From: Verrucomicrobia bacterium ADurb.Bin122
GTDB lineage: Bacteria; Verrucomicrobiota; Verrucomicrobiia; Opitutales; Opitutaceae
Direction of reading: 5' to 3'
Length of the DNA stretch: 50,527 nt
Assembly: GCA_002070825.1 (NCBI GenBank)
Contig: MWDT01000002.1
Location: 1-50,527, forward strand
The notes beneath the pieces were generated by a model, which worked only from the letters and a program-made list of their open reading frames with translations, made no database searches and was not told the DNA's origin. The position numbers were made by a program, and so were the translations under genes. This document shows, in pieces, positions 48,796 to 50,527 of the stretch (the stretch's first letter is position 1; each line of letters starts with the position of its first letter).

Positions 48796-49266
48796 ATGAA
48801 GTGTCCTTCAAATTCATGGCTTATCCTTGCAGTCGGGTTTATTGGTGCGGTTCTTGTTGCCCTTAGTGTGATGCTGACTTGGGGTGGGCATGGTGTCTAT
48901 ACTCCGTTAATTATAGTTACATCACCGTTGGGTTTTCTCGGCTGGGGAAAGGCGGTTATTGTTGCTCCATTTTTGCTGATGGGTGAGGGTGTTCTTGCTC
49001 TATGTCGTAGGTGGTGTTGTTTAGGGCTGTTCTGTGTTTGCGTTTTGGGTGGGTATGTGTATGCTTTTATTTCTATATCAATAGCTTGTGCTAGGCCCGG
49101 CGTTGGGTCTGATGACTTGGCTCGTTTTATTGAGTGGTGGGTTGGTGGATATTTTTGGGTTATTACGCCTGCTGCTATTATATACATTGGGATGCAGGCT
49201 CTCCTGTGGAGGATGCTCATGAGCACATGGTCCGAGGGACCGCAGAAGAGGGTAGGGGGCCCGTAG
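48796..49266 (+). CDS. AT-rich gene for a small multi-pass membrane protein of unknown function
   Basis: I recognise no family for this 156-residue protein. It has four predicted transmembrane helices: about residues 7-30 (WLILAVGFIGAVLVALSVML), 36-68, 70-95 (CLGLFCVCVLGGYVYAFISI) and 115-140 (YFWVITPAAIIYIGMQALLW). A short loop (CARPGVGSDDLARFIEWWVG) lies before the last helix. Codon use is strikingly AT-rich in third positions (TTT, GTT, TTA, ATA) compared with the rest of the window, which suggests recent acquisition. Its last codons and TAG stop fall at the boundary of the first copy of the repeat family that fills the region to the right. Confidence 0.65.
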   Translation: MKCPSNSWLILAVGFIGAVLVALSVMLTWGGHGVYTPLIIVTSPLGFLGWGKAVIVAPFLLMGEGVLALCRRWCCLGLFCVCVLGGYVYAFISISIACARPGVGSDDLARFIEWWVGGYFWVITPAAIIYIGMQALLWRMLMSTWSEGPQKRVGGP

Positions 49267-49295
49267 AAGGGACGGGTTGAAAATGGATACGCAAG
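49262..49295 (+). repeat. Structured dispersed repeat, copy 1
   Basis: This is the first of five copies of a roughly 34-bp element with core GGGACGGGCTGAAAATGGCT followed by a GCAAG-type end. It begins CGTAGAAGGG and contains the TAG stop of the AT-rich gene. TGAAAATGG (49278-49286) is complementary to CCATTTTCA at 49331-49339, just before the ATG of the first 74-codon ORF. Confidence 0.8.
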
Positions 49296-49573
49296 TTATT
49301 GGCTTACAGCTTTATGATGGGCTCTAGTTCCCATTTTCAATGAATACGCCCGAACAGCATATAGCGGTGTTTGCGCCACGGTTCGTTGCGCAGGAGCGTT
49401 TCCGCCAAGTGTCGTTCCGAGTGTCTAGAACCGGCATGCTTTCGATCCTGGCGGAAGGCTACGTTTCGACCGTCGCCGATTTCCATGCGTTGAAGGCGGA
49501 GTGGGAGGCGACGTCTCCGCCCTGCACGACGCCGATCTTCGTTCACATCAACCCGCTCCGTTAACCCGACGGC
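49268..49573 (+). repeat. Direct repeat unit A (306 bp)
   Basis: It is colinear with 49861-50166, offset 593 bp. About 8 differences fall in the first 72 bases but only one in the remaining 234, which contain the 74-codon ORF. Confidence 0.92.
49340..49564 (+). CDS. 74-residue ORF, copy A (unknown)
   Basis: It encodes a 74-residue protein beginning MNTPEQHIAVFAPRF and ending in IFVHINPLR. No family is recognised, and no signal peptide or membrane segment is seen. The middle (RQVSFRVSRTGMLSILAEGY) is a mix of basic and hydrophobic residues that could form two strands and a turn. An exact-length twin lies at 49933-50157, differing by one base that changes Pro to Ser in TTPIF/TTSIF. There is no Shine-Dalgarno sequence. 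The start codon lies directly after CCATTTTCA, the arm complementary to the upstream repeat. The reverse strand is also open, so coding status is plausible but not proven. Confidence 0.45.
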   Translation: MNTPEQHIAVFAPRFVAQERFRQVSFRVSRTGMLSILAEGYVSTVADFHALKAEWEATSPPCTTPIFVHINPLR

Positions 49574-49578
49574 GGGCC

Positions 49579-49611
49579 GTTACAGGGGCAGGCTGAAAAT
49601 GGCTTTGCAAG
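49579..49611 (+). repeat. Structured dispersed repeat, copy 2
   Basis: This diverged copy starts GTTACAGGGG and continues to CTGAAAATGGC. AAAATGGC (49596-49603) pairs with GCCATTTT (49630-49637), so again the repeat sits in a hairpin with a downstream arm. Confidence 0.75.
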
Positions 49612-49792
49612 TTGCTGCTCTTCAATGTCGCCATTTTTGCAGGCTACTGCCTTGGGGCAGGCGAAACGCTCACGCGTTCCGCTACACGGAGGTCGTGGCC
49701 GGGGAGGCGAGTGTGGCCGCGCCTGTCGCGGCGTGGCGTAGCGCAGACTTCCAGTCTGCTCGAAAAGATGCCGTAAAGGACGCCGTAGAGGC
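49612..49792. other. Non-coding spacer with two palindromes
   Basis: No credible gene is present. GCCGCG (49716-49721) pairs with CGCGGC (49727-49732), and GCAGACT (49743-49749) pairs with AGTCTGC (49753-49759) around TCC. The second palindrome with its flanks (GTAGCGCAGACTTCCAGTCT) resembles a dispersed element I associate with Verrucomicrobia and Planctomycetes genomes, which often yields spurious 'ADFQSA' peptides. Confidence 0.5.
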
Positions 49793-49826
49793 CGTAGAAG
49801 GGACGGGCTGAAAATGGCTGCGCAAA
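49793..49826 (+). repeat. Structured dispersed repeat, copy 3
   Basis: This copy begins CGTAGAAGGG like copies 1 and 5 and reads GGGACGGGCTGAAAATGGCT exactly. It is followed by a GGCAGGTTCAGTGA-type stretch that recurs after copy 5. Confidence 0.8.
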
Positions 49827-49855
49827 TGCTTTGCTGGCAGGTTCAGTGATGGGCC

Positions 49856-49888
49856 GTTGCAGGGACAGACTGAAAATGGCTACGCAAG
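49856..49888 (+). repeat. Structured dispersed repeat, copy 4
   Basis: This copy starts GTTGCAGGG like copy 2 and contains TGAAAATGG (49871-49879). The complementary CCATTTTCA at 49924-49932 lies just before the ATG of ORF copy B. It forms the left part of direct repeat unit B. Confidence 0.8.
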
Positions 49889-50166
49889 TTATTGGCTGAC
49901 AACTTTAGGGTGGGCTCTAGTTCCCATTTTCAATGAATACGCCCGAACAGCATATAGCGGTGTTTGCGCCACGGTTCGTTGCGCAGGAGCGTTTCCGCCA
50001 AGTGTCGTTCCGAGTGTCTAGAACCGGCATGCTTTCGATCCTGGCGGAAGGCTACGTTTCGACCGTCGCCGATTTCCATGCGTTGAAGGCGGAGTGGGAG
50101 GCGACGTCTCCGCCCTGCACGACGTCGATCTTCGTTCACATCAACCCGCTCCGTTAACCCGACGGC
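49861..50166 (+). repeat. Direct repeat unit B (306 bp)
   Basis: This is the second copy of unit A (49268-49573). The identity stops abruptly after GACGGC at 50161-50166, which marks the duplication boundary on the right. Confidence 0.92.
49933..50157 (+). CDS. 74-residue ORF, copy B (unknown)
   Basis: It is identical in length and sequence to the ORF at 49340-49564 except for one Pro-to-Ser change near residue 65. It has the same leader arrangement: a TGAAAATGG repeat upstream and CCATTTTCA abutting the ATG. No family is recognised. The retention of an intact frame in both copies is consistent with a real gene, but recent duplication would give the same picture. Confidence 0.45.
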   Translation: MNTPEQHIAVFAPRFVAQERFRQVSFRVSRTGMLSILAEGYVSTVADFHALKAEWEATSPPCTTSIFVHINPLR

Positions 50167-50382
50167 CCGTAGTCGGGCTGGGCTGGAGCTGAAGTGGGCC
50201 GGAACGTCTCCCAGACTCGCGGGCGGCGGCGAGGAGGTTGAATCGGACAAACCGGATGCTTGCGCAGAGGCGCAAAGGCGCAGAGAAAACCGGGCGGAAA
50301 GGTCGGGGAAGTGCCTTGATCTCTGCGCCTCCGCGGCTCAAGCGCAGCGGGCGCGAGCCTGGATCGGGCCGACCGGAGCCCG
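50167..50382. other. Non-coding spacer with long inverted repeat
   Basis: No credible gene is present. AGGCGCAGAGA (50276-50286) pairs perfectly over 11 bp with TCTCTGCGCCT (50320-50330) around a 33-nt loop. The left arm sits in a tandem CGCAGAGGCGCAAAGGCGCA tract of a kind seen dispersed in many environmental bacterial genomes. Confidence 0.55.
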
Positions 50383-50416
50383 CGTAGAAGGGACGGGCTG
50401 AAAATGGCTGCGCAAG
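50383..50416 (+). repeat. Structured dispersed repeat, copy 5
   Basis: It is nearly identical to copy 3: CGTAGAAGGG, then GGGACGGGCTGAAAATGGCT, then GCGCAAG and a GGCAGATTCAGTGA tail. The remaining 110 bases to the window end show no gene. Confidence 0.8.
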
Positions 50417-50527
50417 TGATTGGCTGGCAGATTCAGTGACCGCTGACTGGGCGGAAGCCAATCCGGGGTCAGGTTTTAGGTTTTAATATTCGAGGCTGAC
50501 AGCGGGTGTCGCCGCCCGGATTAGGGC

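Follow-up and report, generated by a model that had tools for sequence, protein, structure and literature searches.

The right-hand end of this contig raises the question of what a short repeat is that recurs five times among small reading frames, and how it came to stand there in a row. In the 50,527-nt stretch that was analysed (the window), the GGG of the repeat core lies at positions 49269, 49585, 49800, 49862 and 50390, always on the plus strand. Two of these core matches are exact and three carry 2 mismatches, with 0 expected from 100 shuffles, which bears out the five copies given in a preliminary description of this DNA. Its division into two left-flank types also holds, with CGTAGAA in copies 1, 3, and 5 and GTTRCA in copies 2 and 4. 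The extent of ~34 bp proposed there was too short, as conservation across the aligned genome sites extends from −11 to about +32, counted from the GGG, and gives a unit of ~44 bp (Table 1).

Table 1. Features of the repeat tract in window coordinates; copies 1 to 5 are read as solo left ends of a transposase element (see text).
Feature	Position	Strand	Detail
Copy 1, solo left end	49258..49301	+	GGCCCGTAGAA followed by GGGACGGGTTGAAAATGG...
Passenger block after copy 1	49318..49573	+	74-aa ORF 49340-49564
Inverted partner of copy 1	49332-49341		CCATTTTCAA
Copy 2, solo left end	49574..49617	+	GGGCCGTTACA followed by GGGGCAGGCTGAAAATGG...; matches the initial part of the transposase element at 87%
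Classical REP palindrome	49741..49759	+	GCGCAGACTTCCAGTCTGC; neighbour, outside the ~44 bp unit
Copy 3, solo left end	49789..49832	+	core exact
Copy 4, solo left end	49851..49894	+	62 nt after copy 3
Passenger block, second copy, after copy 4	49911..50166	+	ORF 49933-50157
Copy 5, solo left end	50379..50422	+	core exact; contig end ~105 nt away
Second repeat	50465..50490	+	GGGGTCAGGTTTTAGGTTTTAATATT; fits GGGGWSAS

The repeat had also been described as able to fold into a hairpin. At the sequence level, copies 1, 2, and 4 have an inverted partner (copies 1 and 4 being parts of one duplicated unit), but it is missing from copies 3 and 5 as well as from most dispersed copies and is not a family trait. 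Single-strand folding of copies against shuffles gave z values of −2.3, +0.3, −1.6, −0.1, −2.5, −1.0 and −0.1, that is, folds mostly not better than those of shuffles, with none in common. A common hairpin is ruled out by these foldings together with the missing partner in most copies.

That the core might occur only in this tract did not prove to be the case. At up to 3 mismatches it is dispersed over 16 sites in the genome of origin, a draft of 3.18 Mb in 832 contigs (84% complete, one strain), against 0 sites for the reversed control. The 16 sites are probably an undercount because many lie near contig ends, as is usual for repeats in draft assemblies. Rfam returned nothing at the gathering score for the repeat; two CRISPR-DR58 matches (E=2) were judged to be chance.

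A linked transposase or RAYT gene, which the preliminary description had proposed to look for, was found elsewhere in the same genome. On three contigs (C112, C79 and C169) the core stands directly 5' of a gene for a ~330-aa protein, and the repeat is the left end of the element that carries this gene. The transposase element has at least 5 copies in the genome, the others sharing 88–90% DNA identity with the C112 copy, and the right flanks of these copies part ways at the stop codon. A DNA search of the genome with the complete element retrieved 6 pieces that carry the gene and 14 short ones. Of the short pieces, 13 lie inside query positions 7–56, at the left end, and terminate at positions 40–56, while the remaining one is a weak internal match; right-end pieces numbered 0. 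Window copies 2 to 5 are among these short pieces. The element query did not list copy 1, which nevertheless shares the ~44 bp unit. Each window repeat is very probably the left end of a Y1/HUH transposase element standing on its own, consisting of ~11 nt of flank type and the first ~33 nt of the element, with no gene. The assembled part of the contig, which ends at position 50527, contains no transposase gene with the array.

The protein is 328–331 aa long, carries the tyrosine motif YIDLNP and matches Y1_Tnp with E=1.3e-9 and REP_Tyr_transpos below the cut-off; its HUH residues and tyrosine do not vary across 41 aligned relatives. Searching the PDB by sequence gave nothing useful. For a relative with 65% identity, the AlphaFold model (pLDDT 88) most closely resembled 4er8, in which a REP transposase is complexed with a REP hairpin, and next the ISDra2 and IS608 transposases. 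Accounting for the repeat as a MITE/REP-type element was right in one respect, as the repeat belongs to a mobile element and goes with a gene of RAYT type, but it is structurally neither REP- nor MITE-like, and a MITE is ruled out by the lack of an inverted partner common to the copies.

The left boundary of the element can be placed on C112, where it terminates an IS5-type transposase gene. Intact IS5-type relatives align until 11 nt before the GGG; as they are only 75–76% identical, they give an approximate boundary rather than an exact empty site. The position fits the −11 limit seen across the family as well as the size of the repeated flank, and suggests that the ~11 bases 5' of the GGG may move along with the unit. 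Right ends are poorly defined overall. No inverted partner was found within 450 nt downstream of the two full transposase genes in the genome of origin. In one relative (G009) the elements have a clear inverted right end, and some related elements, if not more, may thus be of the ordinary two-ended kind. The right ends of that genome (GTCCGTCCCCTTTAG; loci L076 and L079) are tandemly repeated with their flank, mirroring the stutter of the left ends.

The inverted right ends of G009 are what might be expected if solo left ends were remnants of two-ended elements that had lost the gene and the right end, with the clusters representing old nested insertions. Such decay would also fit with left-anchored gene fragments of several lengths. 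The internal fragments, small in number, are N-anchored in 6 cases and C-anchored in 1 (one of each nearly full length), which weakly indicates left-anchored truncation of the kind that a one-ended mechanism (see below) would produce. The near absence of C-anchored fragments speaks against decay, however, as does the lack of any right-end piece in the genome of origin; that 13 of the 14 short pieces there stop at almost one place (query 40–56) disfavours random decay. We regard this origin as unlikely.

To place the left end in a wider context, 80 loci were taken from other Opitutia, of which 73 were usable; the locus counts include several loci per genome, and the events are not independent. 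GGGACAG occurs within 130 nt upstream of the gene in 58/73 loci (background, 1.5% of random stretches), with distances from the gene start that peak near −54 and −77, and in many relatives TTGAC follows the left-end unit. Within 500 nt upstream, GGGACAG was found 106 times in forward and 3 times in reverse orientation. Tandem direct repeats were present upstream in 22/70 loci versus 2.6% of controls, and just downstream of the gene in 0/65. Neighbouring ends at most 130 bases apart form 75 direct and 4 inverted pairs over all loci. The left ends of Opitutia therefore cluster in direct orientation, in head-to-tail rows, hinting at an enzyme that works one-ended. The exact form of the core is rare among the relatives; with the shorter motif GGGACRGGYYRAAAA, solo left ends are seen to have expanded in G014 (16 exact sites) and G003 (11 exact sites), the control giving 0 in both.

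A flank of at least 7 nt (7–30 nt; typically 10–11) is repeated along with the end in 18/75 direct pairs, whereas the flank is different in 57/75. Since some pairs repeat the flank and others differ, two processes are indicated: in one, a left end is duplicated locally together with its flank, and in the other, a new end arrives independently next to an existing one. Replication slippage, which would have made the clusters by local tandem duplication with no part for the transposase, could explain pairs with a repeated locus-specific flank and tandem units like GGATAAGAAACAGGGACAGGCTGA, which stands two in succession, but not the majority with differing flanks or the scattering of copies over the genome. 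Nor does it explain why tandem repeats at the left end reach ~12 times the background level yet are lacking behind the gene, and we consider it quite improbable as the source of the clusters.

The two ORF copies of the preliminary description were confirmed, as the passenger blocks that hold them differ at 1/256 bases. In contrast, the left end plus spacer ahead of each block (49258–49317 and 49851–49910) differ at 11/60 bases, and either the left-end part changes faster or blocks were swapped between different left ends. Because the 74-aa passenger ORF belongs to no known family by profile search and has no relatives elsewhere among 95 genomes, it may be no gene. Its presence only in the window among these 95 genomes rules it out as a spreading cassette, so a cassette-boundary reading of the repeats is not needed; nothing requires an integron, as the linkage to the transposase accounts for the repeats. 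A role of the unit as regulatory element of the transposase gene (promoter, operator or RNA leader), with solo copies kept as useful to their neighbours, appears highly improbable as the explanation, since the fixed spacing to the gene start and the TTGAC in many relatives are set against the empty Rfam search, the lack of a common fold and a passenger ORF without relatives, although such a role would be compatible with mobility.

Several other sequences accompany the tract. An AT-rich reading frame (48796–49266) for a small membrane-type protein (MKCPSNSWLILAVGF...) separates the repeat array from GC-rich permease genes; it has no Pfam match, and its final codons run into the flank of copy 1. 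The second repeat, GGGGTCAGGTTTTAGGTTTTAATATT, has 3 genome copies (window 50465–50490; L019 7526–7551; L025 4797–4822), each with a core copy of like orientation no more than ~100 nt away, and because it fits the GGGGWSAS consensus a second TIRYT-type family (see below) may be involved. The palindrome GCGCAGACTTCCAGTCTGC belongs to a REP family with 14 genome sites, whose partner is a different RAYT of 208 aa on contig C87 (L043); several members of this family have a left-end repeat at a distance of up to ~200 nt, pointing to hot spots common to these repeat families. An additional short repeat family, GGCGAAACGCTCACGCGTTCCGCTACACGG or close variants, is found 3' of the left-end repeat at window positions 49660–49689 and at L023, L026, L027 and L028.

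Overall, the explanation that we favour, with reasonable though not strong confidence, is that of solo left ends of a Y1/HUH element produced by a one-ended mechanism. The transposase would recognise left-end DNA in single-stranded form and nick it near the A-rich trinucleotide immediately 5' of GGGAC, after which the strand beginning at the left end would be transferred or re-copied. Most events would abort after a few tens of bases, so that an older left end gains a solo neighbour of like orientation, and a rare event would pass through the gene to give a full copy. Head-to-tail arrays would arise by repeated action at a single spot, and the window tract would be such an array. For left-end nicking with one-ended, mostly abortive strand transfer or copying, as deduced from sequence patterns, we judge the chances to be about even. 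That a one-ended Y1/HUH transposase generates left-anchored copies of any length, mostly solo ends that seed direct arrays, is a tentative and rather doubtful generalisation. The spread of REP-type repeats has been stated to be unresolved (PMC8266576). If true, one-ended action would let short dispersed repeats arise in a way unlike two-ended single-strand IS transposition. With full, truncated, solo, and stuttered copies across many related genomes, the mechanism is directly testable in vitro and gives a lead, open to experiment, on how bacteria come by such repeats.

When compared with known systems, the element shares its catalytic fold with the IS200/IS605 transposases (IS608, ISDra2), and similar HUH/Tyr chemistry would be expected from the model. 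The present protein, however, is about twice as long (328–331 vs. ~150 aa) and has Y---NP rather than Y---Q, and no subterminal hairpins were seen in the element; its length and YIDLNP motif rule out membership of IS200/IS605 (subclass 1.1). With REP/REPIN sequences and their RAYTs it has in common that a short repeat, scattered over the genome, is associated with a REP-type transposase, 4er8 being the best structural match. It differs in that the transposase is multicopy, the pairs are direct (75) rather than inverted (4), and the unit has neither a conserved palindrome nor a consistent GT[AG]G foot (GTAG occurs in window copies 1, 3, and 5 only). A classical REP/REPIN is ruled out by the direct pairs and by the absence of a common fold and of a consistent foot.

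Closer similarities were found with TIRYTs, which are Y1 transposases flanked by inverted repeats, some of them GGGGWSAS (Di Nocera 2013, PMC3733652); some TIRYT repeats are also dispersed, partly as dimers and clusters (PMC3733652). As in TIRYTs/TIRtrons, a Y1/HUH transposase gene here goes with a flanking repeat and with dispersed copies of it. This repeat may be of the GGGGWSAS type: AGGGACAG of the own-genome element fits the consensus at 7/8 positions, and GGGGACAG of several relatives fits exactly. A literature search on GGGGACAG together with the transposase gave an unrelated primer match only. The present clusters are head to tail, not inverted, and the own-genome elements have no inverted right partner within 450 nt downstream, whereas G009 has one. 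The family resembles TIRYTs at the left end but is not filed as a full member because the inverted right end is clear in G009 and was not found in the genome of origin. TnpA-Y1 subclass 2.3 has been described as ~325 aa long, multicopy, without repeats and mainly from Chromatiales and Alteromonadales (Quentin 2018, PMC6006769). By motif comparison only, the present family has the features of that subclass (NHYH, YVDLNP and an insertion between the HUH and Tyr parts): its ~330-aa protein (vs. 325 aa) carries NH[FY]H, a Y-D-L-N-P type Tyr motif and an extra conserved stretch separating HUH from Tyr, and occurs in several copies per genome. Unlike subclass 2.3, it is found in Opitutia and has a left-end repeat in 58/73 loci. 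The family thus joins features of TIRYTs and of subclass 2.3, and through it a transposase class described as repeat-free gains a repeat of its own.
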